Positions 38,940 through 45,903 of a DNA stretch of 64,000 bases are shown piece by piece; position 1 is the first letter of the stretch; each line of letters starts with the position of its first letter. The position numbers and the translations under genes were made by a program. The stretch spans positions 1 to 64,000 of the forward strand of contig CANJBX010000008.1 in NCBI GenBank assembly GCA_947472885.1. The letters are read 5' to 3'. The notes under the pieces are model-generated. The model did not search any database. It was not told the origin of the DNA and saw only the letters and a program-made list of their open reading frames with translations. Source of the DNA: Hyphomicrobiaceae bacterium. Its GTDB lineage: Bacteria; Pseudomonadota; Alphaproteobacteria; Rhizobiales; Xanthobacteraceae.

Positions 38940-39911
38940 CTACAACTTCAGATCCCATGTTTCGGCGACCAGGGTCTTGCCGAAATCGTCGTGGGTCCAT
39001 TCTTTCGTCAGTTTGAAGCCGGTGTTGACGTAAACCTTGCGCGCCGCTTCCAGCACGCGATGCGTCCATAGCGTGATGCACTTGTACCCGGCTTGCCGCG
39101 AAAACCGGATGCACTCCTCGACCAGCCGCGCACCGATGCCCAGTCCGCGCGCCGATGGATCGACCAGCAGCAGGCGAAGCCGCGCGGTCTCGTCATTCTC
39201 TTTCACGATGAAGACGCAGCCGACGTTCTCGCCGTTGCGCTCCGCGATCCAGCAGCATTCGCGCCTGGCATCGAAGTTGCGCACGAAGGCGGCGGCGATC
39301 TCGGCGGTGAGGGCTTCGATACTGTGGTCCCAGCCGAACTCGCGGCCGTAGAGCGTACCGTGACGCGCAACGACCCAGCCCATGTCGCCGGGCTGCAATG
39401 GCCGCAGGATATACGGCACGCGCGGTGCTTCGGCATTTTCATCGAGCAGCGTCTCGATGGTCTGCATCGCGCTGGTGATCCGGTGTTGCGTGCCGTCAGG
39501 CAAGGCCTCCAGCATCGCCGTGACTTCCGCCATCGTGTGCGCCTCGATGGGCGCGAAAGCCTTGCGGCCGCGCGGCGTCATCGAAAGGAGCGACTGGCGG
39601 CCGTCGCTGCCGGAGGTCTCGCGCACGATGTAGCCGCGCACTTCGAACGCCTTGAGGATGCGGCTGAGATAACCGGCGTCGAGGCCGAGTTCGCGCGCCA
39701 CATCGGTCGCGGTCGGCTTGTCGCGCTGGCCGATTTCGTACAGCACGCGCGCTTCCGCGAGCGAGAACGGCCCGCCGCTGTAGCCCTCCTGCAGGACGCC
39801 GATGCGTTTGGTGTAAAAGCGGTTGAAGCGCCGCACGGCGGCGACGCGTTCCGGGGTCTTGCCAGCGGGTGTGGAGTCGCGCGCAGGCGGGGAGGGGCGA
39901 GGCGAGGGCAT
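38940..39911 (-). CDS. MarR-type regulator fused to a GNAT acetyltransferase
   Basis: A 323-residue two-domain protein. Residues about 20-160 form a MarR winged helix with TDVARELGLDAGYLSRILKA (helix-turn-helix) and the wing VRETSGSDGRQSLLSM. Residues about 165-323 form a GNAT domain with RLLLVDPSARGLGIGARLVE (acetyl-CoA loop). The combination suggests sensing of, and acetylation of, some small molecule. A palindrome 22 bases upstream of the start probably is its operator. The N-terminal 15 residues are Pro-rich. Confidence 0.9.
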   Translation of the reverse strand: MPSPRPSPPARDSTPAGKTPERVAAVRRFNRFYTKRIGVLQEGYSGGPFSLAEARVLYEIGQRDKPTATDVARELGLDAGYLSRILKAFEVRGYIVRETSGSDGRQSLLSMTPRGRKAFAPIEAHTMAEVTAMLEALPDGTQHRITSAMQTIETLLDENAEAPRVPYILRPLQPGDMGWVVARHGTLYGREFGWDHSIEALTAEIAAAFVRNFDARRECCWIAERNGENVGCVFIVKENDETARLRLLLVDPSARGLGIGARLVEECIRFSRQAGYKCITLWTHRVLEAARKVYVNTGFKLTKEWTHDDFGKTLVAETWDLKL

Positions 39912-39952: not shown

Positions 39953-40552
39953 TCAGATGTCGTCCTCGCGCCCGACCATGTGGGCCTCCGTCCGCAGCAT
40001 CGTGATCTGGCGGCGGCCGATGCGTTCGAGCAGGTCGCCCTCCGGGTCGGCCTTGCCGTCGCGATGGCCGCCGAGGCTGTCGTAGAACTTGCGGGAGATG
40101 ATCAATCCTTGTTCCGTACGTGGCCGGCCTCCCAGCGCCGCGCGCAGCAGCGTAATCGCCTCTGCTAAGACAGTTCGCGAGCCGCCAGCGTCCGGCGAAG
40201 GCCGGAAGATCGCTGCCCGTTTGCCCGTTGCCTGCTGATATTCGGCCTGCTGCTGGAAGCGCACACACTCCTCGACCCAGGTCGGATTGATGACGACGCC
40301 GGGCCGCAGGAACATCAGCCACGGCGCGCGCGCCCGCGCTGCAGCCATCCGAAGCCGTTGTGCCAGCGGGGCTTTTTCAATGAAAAACTCGCAGCCGGCG
40401 ATGTCCGCGACTTCCGGCGTATCGTCGGTCGAGCCGCCATCGACGACGATCACATCGCGCACCGCGCCTGCCGCCGCGCCCGACACCAGCGATGCCAGCG
40501 TCGGCACCAGCGGGCGCTCGCTATTATGTGTCGCAATCACGACGCTCAGCAT
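39953..40552 (-). CDS. Family 2 glycosyltransferase
   Basis: A 199-residue GT-A fold glycosyltransferase-like protein. The N-terminal SVVIATHNSERPLVPTLASL and the nucleotide-sugar metal site DVIVVDGGSTDDT (about residues 29-45) are clear. The middle ARAPWLMFLRPGVV and the C-terminal RISRKFYDSLGGH type sequence fit the family. The ATG giving MLSVVIATHN is preferred. Acceptor unknown; the length is short for a full enzyme. It lies just upstream of the MarR-GNAT gene and is divergent from the radical SAM gene. Confidence 0.82.
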   Translation of the reverse strand: MLSVVIATHNSERPLVPTLASLVSGAAAGAVRDVIVVDGGSTDDTPEVADIAGCEFFIEKAPLAQRLRMAAARARAPWLMFLRPGVVINPTWVEECVRFQQQAEYQQATGKRAAIFRPSPDAGGSRTVLAEAITLLRAALGGRPRTEQGLIISRKFYDSLGGHRDGKADPEGDLLERIGRRQITMLRTEAHMVGREDDI

Positions 40553-40598
40553 CGAAAGCCCATCCCGGTAGATGAAAACCCAAACCCGCACCACGGGT

Positions 40599-40623
40599 GG
40601 AACCGCAGCGCAGATTTTTCGTT
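40599..40623 (+). promoter_or_regulatory. EcfG-type stress promoter
   Basis: GGAAC, 16 bases, then CGTT (40599-40603 and 40620-40623) match the general stress sigma factor EcfG promoter exactly (GGAAC-N16-17-CGTT). It points toward the radical SAM gene 109 bases downstream. Function inferred from the motif. Confidence 0.6.
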
Positions 40624-40692
40624 AGAAAAATAGACACTAGATCAGAGGGATAGCCGCCTGCAACGTGAAGCATGAGGCATCGTCGTCATTTT

Positions 40693-40707
40693 GTTCTTGT
40701 TTTGTTC
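40693..40707 (+). promoter_or_regulatory. LexA (SOS) box
   Basis: GTTC-TTGTTTT-GTTC fits the alphaproteobacterial LexA site GTTC-N7-GTTC exactly, 24 bases before the radical SAM ATG. A binding site at this place would block transcription until DNA damage. Confidence 0.7.
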
Positions 40708-40731
40708 ATAAGGTGGTATTAGATATTTCCC

Positions 40732-41889
40732 ATGCGCCCCTCGTCAGCAGTTCGCAAACCACTTCCCGATCCGGCCTTCCACCCCGCCGGTGAAACCGCC
40801 GATGTTCATGTCGGCAGTGAGCGCCGCCGTGGCCGCGGCGCCCAATCCAATGCCTCCGGCCGTTATGAACCGACGGCGCGGATCGCCGTCGATGACGGGT
40901 GGCAAAGCCTCGAGGAGCTGGCACCGTTCAAGACCACGGTCGCCATCGACAACGCGCGCAAGATCATCACGACGAACGACTCCCCGGACATTTCCTTTGA
41001 CCGTTCGATCAATCCCTACCGGGGCTGCGAACACGGCTGCGTCTATTGCTTCGCGCGGCCTACCCACGCCTATCTCGGCCTGTCGCCGGGGCTGGATTTC
41101 GAGTCCAGGCTCTATATGAAGCCGGATGCGCCCGAACTCCTTGAGCGCGAACTGTCGGCTGCAAAATATTCGCCGCGGACCATCGCCATCGGCACCAACA
41201 CCGATCCCTATCAGCCGATTGAAAAGAAATACGAGATCATGCGGCGCATCCTGCAGGTGCTGGACCGCGCCAACCACCCTGTCGGCATCGTGACGAAGTC
41301 GGCGCTGGTGCTGCGCGACATCGACATTCTCTCCAGCATGGCGAAGCGCAATCTGGTGAAGGTTGCGGTGTCGGTGACGACGCTCGATCCGGGCCTTGCC
41401 CGCGTGATGGAGCCGCGCGCCGCAACGCCGCAGCGCCGCCTCAACACGCTGCGTGAGTTATCCGCCGCCGGCATTCCGACCACGGTGATGGTCGCGCCGG
41501 TCATTCCGGCCATCAATGACGACGAGATCGAGCGCATCCTCGATGCCGCGAAGGCTGCGGGCTGCACCAGCGCCGGCTACGTGCTGCTGCGGCTGCCGCT
41601 GGAGGTGCGCGACATCTTCAAGGAATGGTTGATGGCGAATTTCCCGGACCGCTATCGCCATGTGCTGTCACTCATCCGCCAGACCCGCGGCGGCAAGGAC
41701 TATGACGCGCAGTGGGGCACCCGCATGAAGGGCGGCGGCCCGGTTGCGTGGCTGATCGGCCGGCGCGTCGAACAGGCGTGCGAGCGGCTCGGCCTCAATA
41801 CTGTGAAGAAGCGGCTGACAACGGAACTGTTCACGCCGCCGCTCCAGCAGGAGAAGGCTGCGCAACTCAGCCTGTTTGAGATCGCGTAA
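40732..41889 (+). CDS. SplB-like radical SAM protein (PA0069 family)
   Basis: A 385-residue radical SAM enzyme of the PA0069/Rv2578c group, related to spore photoproduct lyase. The 4Fe-4S ligands are C99, C103 and C106 (C-x3-C-x2-C, in GCEHGCVYCFARPTH). SAM-binding parts include AIGTNTDPYQPIEKKY and the RLPLEVRDIFKEWL region. The role is unproven, but the lyase-like family name and the LexA box upstream both point to DNA repair. It starts at ATG 40732, downstream of EcfG and LexA sites. The N-terminal 60 residues look disordered. Confidence 0.87.
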   Translation: MRPSSAVRKPLPDPAFHPAGETADVHVGSERRRGRGAQSNASGRYEPTARIAVDDGWQSLEELAPFKTTVAIDNARKIITTNDSPDISFDRSINPYRGCEHGCVYCFARPTHAYLGLSPGLDFESRLYMKPDAPELLERELSAAKYSPRTIAIGTNTDPYQPIEKKYEIMRRILQVLDRANHPVGIVTKSALVLRDIDILSSMAKRNLVKVAVSVTTLDPGLARVMEPRAATPQRRLNTLRELSAAGIPTTVMVAPVIPAINDDEIERILDAAKAAGCTSAGYVLLRLPLEVRDIFKEWLMANFPDRYRHVLSLIRQTRGGKDYDAQWGTRMKGGGPVAWLIGRRVEQACERLGLNTVKKRLTTELFTPPLQQEKAAQLSLFEIA

Positions 41890-41924: not shown

Positions 41925-42365
41925 ATGAATATTTCTCCGCGTCTGACGGTCGTCACGCTTGGCGTCAGCGACATGGCCCGCAGCATCGCGTTTTATGAAC
42001 GGCTGGGGCTCAGGCGCAAAATGAAGGCAACCGGCGAAGCCGTCGCGTTCTTCGAGGCCGGGGCGATGACGCTCGCGTTGTTTCCGTGGGATCAGCTTGC
42101 GGCGGATGCGCAGCTCAAGGACTTGCCGCGCCCGATGGCGTTTCGCGGCAGTACGCTCGCCTGGAATTGCGTATCGCCCGAGGAAGTGAAGGCCAGCCTG
42201 GCGCATGCGCTGGCGGCCGGCGCCAGGGAACTGAAATCGCCGCAGGTTACGGACTACGGCGGCTTCTGCTGCTATTTCGCCGATCCCGATGGTCATGTCT
42301 GGGAGATCGTCACTGCGCCGGGTATCGAGGTGCTGGCGGACGGGCGGGTGGGATTGCCGGAGTAG
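41925..42365 (+). CDS. VOC family protein (glyoxalase fold)
   Basis: A 146-residue vicinal oxygen chelate protein with two beta-alpha-beta-beta-beta units. The N-terminal LTVVTLGVSDMARSIAFYERLGL and the C-terminal YFADPDGHVWEIV with its metal-binding histidine and glutamate are typical. Substrate cannot be told; the family includes glyoxalases, dioxygenases and resistance proteins. It follows the radical SAM gene after 35 bases. Confidence 0.9.
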   Translation: MNISPRLTVVTLGVSDMARSIAFYERLGLRRKMKATGEAVAFFEAGAMTLALFPWDQLAADAQLKDLPRPMAFRGSTLAWNCVSPEEVKASLAHALAAGARELKSPQVTDYGGFCCYFADPDGHVWEIVTAPGIEVLADGRVGLPE

Positions 42366-42463
42366 CAAAACCTTATCCCGGCAATTCACAGCCAGTATTT
42401 TGAAAGTGTGCGCCGACCCGATGTATGTTGATCGCCTTGCATGCCCATGTGCACCATGGCCGC

Positions 42464-43156
42464 ATGAGTCGCCAACAGACTAAAATCATTCCCCGCGTGC
42501 AGAAGCTGCTGCTGCCAGAGGCGGAATTGCGCCCGACGTTCCATCGTGAACGGCATGCGATGAAGCGCGGCGTCTGGCCGGTCGCAGGCTGCGACGAGGC
42601 GGGCAGGGGACCGCTCGCGGGCCCGGTGGTGGCTGCCGCCGTCATTCTCGACCCGAAGAAAATTCCGCGCGGGCTCGACGACTCCAAGAAACTGACCCGT
42701 GCGCAGCGCGAGGCGCTGTACCTCAAGATCACCGCAACCGTAGAATTCTCGGTTGCGGTGGGCTCGCCGGCGCGCATCGACCGCGACAATATTTTGCGCG
42801 CATCGTTGTGGGCGCTGGCGCGCGCGGTACACGGACTGCATTCGCGGCCGCAGCTCGTTTATGTCGATGGCCGCGACTGCATCGATTGCGGCTGCGATTG
42901 CGAGGCGGTGATTTCCGGCGACGCCCAGATGCTGTCGATTGCGGCGGCCTCGATCATCGCCAAGGTGGTGCGTGACCGGCTGATGGTCCGGCTCGGCGAA
43001 ATGCATCCGGGCTACGGCTTCGAGCGCCACATGGGCTATGGCGTGCCGGAACATTCCCGCGCGCTCGCCGCGCTTGGCCCGACGATCCATCACCGCCGCT
43101 CGTTCGCGCCGGTGGCGGCGGCACATGCCCGCTGGAACGAGGCGCAAACCGCATAA
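42464..43156 (+). CDS. rnhB: Ribonuclease HII
   Basis: A 230-residue RNase HII that cuts RNA at ribonucleotides in DNA. The active-site acidic residues are in [20 protein letters not shown] and VYVDGRDCI, and further conserved parts are [19 protein letters not shown] and [14 protein letters not shown] basic N-terminal extension of about 35 residues precedes the catalytic core. I start at ATG 42464 (MSRQQTK); an in-frame ATG at 42425 would add 13 residues. Neither has a strong ribosome binding site. Confidence 0.94.
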
Positions 43157-44906: not shown

Positions 44907-45791
44907 TTACGCGCTCACGGGTTTTGCAAGTTCCTGCTTGATCGACAGGAAATCGCGCCACGCCAGCCGCTTCTCCAGCGGTGAGCGCAACAGATAGGCC
45001 GGATGGAATGTCGCGATGGCGCGGATCTCGCGCTTGCCGGTGTTGTAGGCGAGGAAACGCCCGCGCGTCTTGCGGATGCCGTCGGTGAAGCCGAGCAGCG
45101 TCTGCGATGACGGGCCGCCGAGGCAGACGAGAATGTCCGGGTCCGCAAGCTCGATCTGGCGCGAGATGAATGGCAGGCAGATCTGGCTTTCCTGCGGCGT
45201 CGGCGTGCGGTTGCCCGGCGGCCGCCACGGAATGATGTTGGCGATGTAGGCGCCGGTGCGGTCGAGCCCGATGGCCTTCATCATCAGGTCGAGCAATTTG
45301 CCCGAGCGCCCGATGAACGGAACGCCGGCGCGGTCTTCGTCGCTGCCCGGCGCTTCGCCGACGAACATCACACGCGCCTGCGGATTGCCGTCCGAGAACA
45401 CCAGCTGCTTGGCGGATTTCTTCAGCCCGCAGCCGTCGAACGTACCCAGAATGGCCTTCAACTCCTCAAGCGAACCGGCGGATTTTGCGGCTTCCCGGGC
45501 AGCCATCACGGCAACGTCGGGGGCAGGCGGCGCATTTACCGCGGGCGCCGCTTTCGGCACGTTCTTGGGCGGCAAGGTCGTGCGGATGGTTGATACCGGA
45601 CGCTCGGCCTGTTCCGCAGGCGTGGTCGCCACCGCTTGTGGCTGGAGCGCGGGGGCGGCGGCTTCCGGCGCAAAACGGTCGACGGGCTCCTCGCCGACAA
45701 GCGCGTCCACGCCCGCCTCCATGTAGAAGGTCAGGATTTCCCGCGCGGCAGCCCGGTTGCCCGGGGTGTTGTCGATGTGGTCGTTCGCCAT
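44907..45791 (-). CDS. Family 4-like uracil-DNA glycosylase
   Basis: A 294-residue UDG whose core resembles family 4 enzymes: motif GEAPG at about residues 145-149 and later LHPAYLLRSP-type HPAYLLR. Family 4 enzymes carry four cysteines for an Fe-S cluster. Here only two matching cysteines are seen (C121 in DGCGLKK and C205 in QICLPF); the first (F118) and the one in the RPPGNR loop (W189) are replaced, so the cluster may be absent. The first 105 residues form a Pro/Ala-rich low-complexity arm. I start at ATG 45791. Confidence 0.87.
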   Translation of the reverse strand: MANDHIDNTPGNRAAAREILTFYMEAGVDALVGEEPVDRFAPEAAAPALQPQAVATTPAEQAERPVSTIRTTLPPKNVPKAAPAVNAPPAPDVAVMAAREAAKSAGSLEELKAILGTFDGCGLKKSAKQLVFSDGNPQARVMFVGEAPGSDEDRAGVPFIGRSGKLLDLMMKAIGLDRTGAYIANIIPWRPPGNRTPTPQESQICLPFISRQIELADPDILVCLGGPSSQTLLGFTDGIRKTRGRFLAYNTGKREIRAIATFHPAYLLRSPLEKRLAWRDFLSIKQELAKPVSA

Positions 45792-45903
45792 GCCCGACTT
45801 TAGCACAGGCGCGCCGCGCGGCGATTGCCCGGCGGCGGCGAAAGTGGAAAAACATCTGGAGGGAATCTAAATACCAGCCTTCAGGCCATCCGAGGAGGTT
45901 TCA

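Follow-up and report, generated by a model that had tools for sequence, protein, structure and literature searches.

This locus raises the question whether a single promoter region places a radical SAM gene under two regulators, LexA of the SOS response and EcfG of the general stress response, and whether the encoded enzyme acts in DNA repair. The window, i.e. the whole stretch of DNA that was analysed, comprises 64,000 nt of a Hyphomicrobiaceae bacterium (contig CANJBX010000008.1). An earlier note had described an EcfG-type and a LexA-type motif upstream of this gene. Both were confirmed at their exact coordinates, on the + strand and in the described order before the radical SAM gene (Table 1).

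Table 1. Features of the radical SAM locus, in window coordinates.
Feature	Position	Strand	Basis or remark
Divergent glycosyltransferase family 2 gene (start GTG 40594 or ATG 40552)	39953..40594	-	PF00535
EcfG-type promoter-like site GGAACCGCAGCGCAGATTTTTCGTT (GGAAC-N16-CGTT)	40599..40623	+	exact sequence; start 94 nt 5' of LexA box start
LexA (SOS) box GTTCTTGTTTTGTTC (GTTC-N7-GTTC)	40693..40707	+	exact sequence; orthologue conservation
Predicted -35 element TTGTTT, inside LexA box spacer	40697..40702	+	inference from conservation
Predicted -10 element TAGATA, 17 nt past -35	40720..40725	+	inference from conservation
PA0069-family radical SAM gene, 385 aa, ATG at 40732	40732..41889	+	NF033668, PF04055
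Glyoxalase-fold gene, second in putative operon	41925..42365	+	PF00903; downstream, same strand in 27/67 loci
Ribonuclease HII gene (rnhB), third in putative operon, start codon uncertain	42425..43156	+	NF000595, 231 bits (cut-off 167)
Family 4 uracil-DNA glycosylase near operon	44907-45806		profile match

The earlier note had also given weight to the mere occurrence of two exact matches in one promoter region. Counted by itself, however, neither pattern is above chance in the window or in its genome. GTTC-N7-GTTC occurs twice in the window (2.1 expected) and 101 times genome-wide, compared with 122 for the reversed pattern. GGAAC-N15..17-CGTT is found three times in the window (1.9 expected), and GGAAC-N16-CGTT 47 times genome-wide, compared with 73 for its reversed pattern. 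An exact motif match alone was rejected as evidence for this reason, and the significance of both motifs rests on the comparison of orthologues.

The search for orthologues covered whole genomes of the same order, taxonomic family and phylum, where 133 of 150, 117 of 119 and 159 of 299 genomes, respectively, had a match to the protein family. The search also took in named genomes, and upstream stretches were taken for a part of all matches. Matches cut by contig edges (G029, G034, G043, G095) were left out of the order sample; the family sample included about 75 of the 116 genomes over the cut-off; and the phylum sample combined 20 hand-picked loci with 18 loci returned by the search. The 304 alphaproteobacterial loci gave 291 distinct upstream regions of at least 300 nt, after removal of the window's own copy (L308), duplicates and rows with less than 300 nt upstream. 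Ten non-alphaproteobacterial loci were counted apart from these 291.

Comparison of the upstream regions revealed GTTC-N7-GTTC in 278 of the 291 distinct alphaproteobacterial orthologues, whereas 50 dinucleotide shuffles of the same regions gave a mean of 2.4 and a maximum of 6. Similarly, the real direct repeat occurred in 168 of the 177 upstreams of a first set, whereas eleven permuted versions of it occurred in 0 to 6. The spacer sequence departs strongly from randomness, and the commonest form of the box across orthologues is GTTCTTG[T/A/C]TTTGTTC. The exact box is absent from 13 of the 291 regions, one of which (L119) carries it reversed. This conservation strongly supports the predicted LexA site upstream of the radical SAM gene as real, and the SOS half of the earlier proposal was thereby borne out. 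Searches in up to 500 nt upstream of the ten orthologues from other classes revealed no alphaproteobacterial box. Seven of these hand-picked orthologues carry CTGT-N8-ACAG (shuffled mean 0.04), which we take to be the LexA box of gamma- and beta-Proteobacteria; it lies near the aligned start in six and about 200 nt upstream in one, and the remaining three are without it. Because the alphaproteobacterial box and CTGT-N8-ACAG precede the gene in different classes, it seems to be tied to LexA under two different motifs. PA0069 itself belongs to the LexA regulon of Pseudomonas aeruginosa.

LexA control of the radical SAM gene, although rightly proposed, is essentially known already. It was predicted in 2012 for a splB homologue of alpha- and beta-Proteobacteria, with different LexA motifs (PMC3323433). 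That gene and the one described here are both SplB-like and under predicted LexA control; the locus tags in the available text of the paper are unmatched to the PA0069 family. The same text argues for the tie between gene and LexA from fewer species than were compared here, makes no mention of an EcfG site, and describes the trait as not seen in the gamma-Proteobacteria studied, whereas CTGT-N8-ACAG was detected in seven of our ten non-alphaproteobacterial orthologues, pooled without assignment to classes. The accessible part of PMC9380542 lists a LexA site for a radical SAM gene of Streptomyces venezuelae. The terms 'radical SAM', 'splB' and 'photolyase' are absent from the main text of a Caulobacter SOS paper (PMC12700426), and the available parts of PMC3188799 and PMC8092242 hold nothing on this gene. 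Literature searches revealed no published report of control of this gene by EcfG together with LexA.

The end of the LexA box and the ATG of the radical SAM gene are 24 nt apart in the window. In 148 of the 278 orthologues with a box, the first in-frame ATG lies at +38 to +40 from the box start (window: +39), and this fixed distance suggests leaderless SOS transcripts. Across the 278 boxes, positions +4 to +6 read TTG with a conservation of 0.91, 0.90 and 0.84, and a second conserved patch consists of T at +27 and +31 (0.55 and 0.54) with A at +28 (0.59). The simplest reading of these patterns is a housekeeping-type promoter with its -35 element inside the LexA box and a transcript start at or beside the ATG. 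Both predicted promoter elements are weak matches in the window, with three of six bases each.

The EcfG-type site has a different distribution. The strict form GGAAC-N16-CGTT was present in seven of the 278 boxed upstreams (shuffles: mean 0.58) and in 4 of 168 of the first set, where permuted motifs gave a mean of 0.66 and 2% of them were as high. From these counts the site was initially read as rare and marginal, a reading that was dropped after the wider pattern GGAAC-N17/18-GTT, which includes N16-CGTT, matched 21 of the 278 upstreams, ten with n = 17 and eleven with n = 18. This pattern was picked after seeing the data: spacings were tested, and the control GGAAC...TTGC, with six matches at each of two spacings, exposed GGAAC-N16/17-GGTT at the same place in many relatives. 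The mean count of the wider pattern was 1.49 in 200 shuffles (maximum 5) and 0.94 at 35 other spacings. When 30 permutations of GGAAC were combined with 30 spacing pairs, the EcfG pattern came first of 900, with 16 distinct spacers in its 21 matches. The runner-up, CGGAA at the same spacings, had 17 matches with 10 distinct spacers, inflated by related Mesorhizobium-like rows. Nine of the 14 matches of the control CGGAA-N17-GTT are close variants of one sequence in these rows, so that relatedness explains most of its count.

The distance from the site to the downstream LexA box is 93 to 105 nt in 15 of the 21 upstreams, 66 to 74 nt in four and shorter in two. On a tree of 147 rows, which include the window and 20 of the 21 site rows, the site needs 8 changes compared with 20.0 in shuffles, none of 500 being as low. 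One large branch, the family clade, holds 19 of the 21 sites together with the window; all nine rows of the clade with Pseudolabrys and four of five in the clade with Pseudorhodoplanes have it. None of the 67 rows of the clade holding Bradyrhizobium, Afipia and Rhodopseudomonas has the site, it is rare in the remaining order sample, and the window's nearest row in the tree (L166) is also without it. In a MAFFT alignment of 14 upstream regions the EcfG-type sites were not in register, which was not counted as evidence of absence. Judged by this comparison of upstream sequences, EcfG-type sites before this gene appear to form a genuine class, confined for the most part to one portion of the family, and the site of the window would belong to it.

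GGAAC-N16-CGTT is given as the EcfG1 consensus of Rhizobium etli in the available text of PMC3892343. The window thus carries the form of EcfG/RpoE2 general stress promoters, but EcfG, NepR and PhyR were not detected in its genome. A scan of ten phyR-nepR-ecfG loci revealed the strict form in six of eight genomes, while G154 and G163 are without it in the stretch scanned; in L270 and L276, the only loci where sites were compared with genes, it lies directly before phyR and on the opposite strand. NepR is present in 16 of 18 other genomes of the same family (three of them below the family cut-off). Tests for PhyR and EcfG were positive in all 11 same-family genomes examined, with 69 to 77% identity for PhyR and 71 to 81% for the best EcfG copy (the query's own genome apart); one of the PhyR matches (G258) holds a stop. 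Corresponding searches in the window's genome revealed no NepR, a best PhyR match of 27.7 bits that covers the receiver part only, and a best EcfG match with 40% identity, which is a paralogue. This EcfG-like sigma factor (G000:C30) is the only PhyR_sigma2 match there (65.5 bits) and adjoins a putative anti-sigma gene (weak match).

The assembly of the window's genome comprises 128 contigs and is estimated to be 99.4% complete. As phyR, nepR and ecfG are clustered in relatives, one assembly gap could hide all three. A synteny comparison fits loss and gap alike: four of five Pseudorhodoplanes-like (g118) genomes have the module at about 25 kb from the radical SAM gene, but ppdK, a marker gene near the window end, is located elsewhere there. 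It is possible that this genome has lost the alphaproteobacterial general stress response, which would make the EcfG site a relic, or that an assembly gap contains the module. Since PhyR, NepR and EcfG were not found, the EcfG input is probably inactive in the window's genome, and with a gap possible as well, we did not file the gene as a member of the EcfG regulon there. The stress half of the earlier proposal is supported at the level of a clade of relatives, in which the site comes back at a fixed spacing, but EcfG regulation is doubtful in this genome.

Neighbourhood counts were made for the 67 of 80 named-genome loci (L190-L269) that had long flanks. In 62 of them the radical SAM gene is followed by an RNase HII gene of the same orientation, and in none of these 62 does a LexA box lie between the two genes. 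In 26 loci a family 4 uracil-DNA glycosylase gene follows in the opposite orientation, and in 45 a glycosyltransferase homologue is encoded upstream on the opposite strand. The conserved pairing of the radical SAM gene with the RNase HII gene may be functional, and the conserved order of the radical SAM, (glyoxalase) and rnhB genes suggests a repair unit. Gene order makes it possible that the radical SAM gene and rnhB form one transcription unit; the gaps before rnhB are often longer than 100 nt, for which reason rnhB may have its own promoter. Positions 38940-39911 of the window encode a MarR-type regulator fused with a GNAT acetyltransferase.

The radical SAM protein matched NF033668 (PA0069 family) with 561.3 bits over the full model (cut-off 360) as well as PF04055, and at the family level it does not differ from PA0069 family radical SAM proteins. 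The related Rv2578c family (NF038135) scored 233 bits, under that family's cut-off of 430. NCBIfam also holds a spore photoproduct lyase model, which was not among the four NCBIfam families matched at E values up to 0.001. Among solved structures, a sequence search with the single protein gave no relative at E 0.001, and a profile search with a limit of E = 1 gave no spore photoproduct lyase. An AlphaFold2 model built from 47 sequences had a mean pLDDT of 68, with values below 50 for residues 99-124 around the cluster. The best solved fold matches of this model are spore photoproduct lyase (SplB) entries: 4fhc with a Foldseek E value of 1.7e-7, and 4fhg with a VIA Z of 15.3 and an rmsd of 3.9 over 263 residues; lipoyl synthase is the next family (Z 13.1). 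The fold and the CX3CX2C motif are alike in SplB, at about 11-13% identity in structure alignments.

The cluster motif reads CEHGCVYC, and its cysteines C99, C103 and C106 are present in 304 of 304 distinct sequences. The next cysteine column, at position 350, holds cysteine in 139 of the 304 and is the only other column with more than 20% Cys. Spore photoproduct lyase has a hydrogen-donor cysteine, Cys141 in B. subtilis, according to the available text of PMC9850924. As only the three cluster cysteines are invariant, this donor is without a conserved counterpart here, judged from the sequence columns of the 304 sequences. The modelled protein appears to resemble spore photoproduct lyase in fold, with a different active site, and we do not claim that it is one. 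A DNA-repair role is plausible in view of the regulation, the fold and the neighbourhood.

Directly observed are the conservation and spacing of the sites, the family membership, the fold resemblance of a medium-quality model, the gene order and the absence of the module from the assembly. We infer from them an SOS-regulon radical SAM gene with LexA over its -35 element, which likely encodes a lesion enzyme, and with an EcfG-type second promoter that is probably inactive here; taken as a whole, we consider this explanation likely. LexA would sit on GTTCTTGTTTTGTTC and cover the -35 element of a housekeeping-type promoter, from which transcription would start at or next to the ATG and yield a leaderless mRNA. 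On DNA damage, LexA would come off and the radical SAM enzyme would be induced; read-through would perhaps also induce the downstream glyoxalase and RNase HII genes. The enzyme would most likely reverse or process a DNA lesion by radical chemistry. General stress would act through the upstream EcfG-type promoter, which part of the family shares; this second input is probably silent in the window's genome.

Instead of being inactive, the second promoter could be live if the PhyR-NepR-EcfG module lies in an assembly gap; the gene would then be expressed by EcfG in stationary phase or under stress, and from the LexA promoter after damage. The site of the window has the strict N16-CGTT form of the relatives' phyR-nepR-ecfG loci, the assembly is in 128 contigs, and a loss of the module would be unusual for the family, given NepR in 16 of 18 and PhyR plus EcfG in 11 of 11 genomes. 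However, the estimated completeness of 99.4%, the separate searches for the three proteins, none of which was found, and the lack of a genome-wide excess of GGAAC-N16-CGTT (47 versus 73) argue against it, and we regard live dual control as possible but on the unlikely side. Chance could also have produced the GGAAC-N16-CGTT of the window, despite the real sites in related species. This is consistent with pattern counts at or below chance in window and genome, with the nearest tree row L166 lacking the site, and with the absence from the window of a GC-rich stretch found just after the site in many relatives; we nevertheless think it unlikely, as the distance of -94 to the LexA box fits relatives at -93 to -96 (L348, L185, L190, L350) and the site has the strict form. 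It is very unlikely that another ECF sigma factor, the EcfG-like protein at G000:C30 beside the putative anti-sigma factor, reads the GGAAC site. In favour of this, a weak GGAAT-N18-GTT lies 5' of one of its candidate start codons, and it is the only PhyR_sigma2 match, with 40% identity to EcfG; yet EcfG-bearing relatives also have paralogues with 39-47% identity to EcfG, so that it looks like a different sigma group, and GGAAC-N17/18-GTT is absent from the surrounding 4-kb stretch.

The function of the enzyme allows another alternative: it could work on tRNA, a peptide or a cofactor, with its SOS induction a coincidence. Radical SAM enzymes of other kinds fit the model too (lipoyl synthase with Z 13.1 versus 15.3), and the donor cysteine of spore photoproduct lyase has no conserved counterpart. 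We consider this alternative unlikely, since likely LexA sites of two kinds occur in different classes, an RNase HII gene adjoins, and the top-ranking folds are those of spore photoproduct lyase. Lesion repair under LexA is thus the preferred function, and it can be extended to a joint reading that we offer tentatively and consider unlikely to hold in full: the PA0069 family would be an SOS-induced, lesion-reversing radical SAM enzyme, widespread in Proteobacteria, with a hydrogen transfer unlike that of spore photoproduct lyase; it would work with RNase HII in Rhizobiales; in the Pseudolabrys/Pseudorhodoplanes line an EcfG transcript would have to pass the LexA site; and the species of the window would have lost the module and kept the promoter. 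If true, this would be a stress-and-damage gate on one repair gene.

Nearly all Rhizobiales orthologues examined in this radical SAM family are preceded by a likely LexA site, and most of the small sample from other classes by the other motif. With the likely site so conserved, deletion and damage assays would be a direct test of the putative repair role. Since part of the family has the EcfG-type site, natural pairs of promoters with and without a predicted general-stress input exist, which may serve to study circuit integration.

Eleven other box regions of the window's genome were picked by eye, and a part of them was scanned for protein families. Three lie near repair or replication genes, i.e. 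the uvrA/ssb interval, the gene for DNA polymerase III alpha (about 470 nt before it) and a RecD-like helicase gene; the other eight have no clear repair gene adjoining the box. The box of the helicase gene, GTTCTTTTTTTGTTC at G000:C14:63019-63033 (L003), is located 57 nt before that gene, which encodes a RecD2-like protein of 369 residues. At G000:C18:37996-38010 (L010), GTTCTACAAATGTTC precedes the gene of a serine recombinase with Resolvase and Recombinase domains by about 200 nt and may be a chance match. The box GTTCTCTATTTGTTC at G000:C14:2738-2752 (L002 1239-1253) is followed by a frame of 151 residues that has no Pfam or NCBIfam match at E 0.001, and this frame is possibly a previously unrecognised SOS gene.
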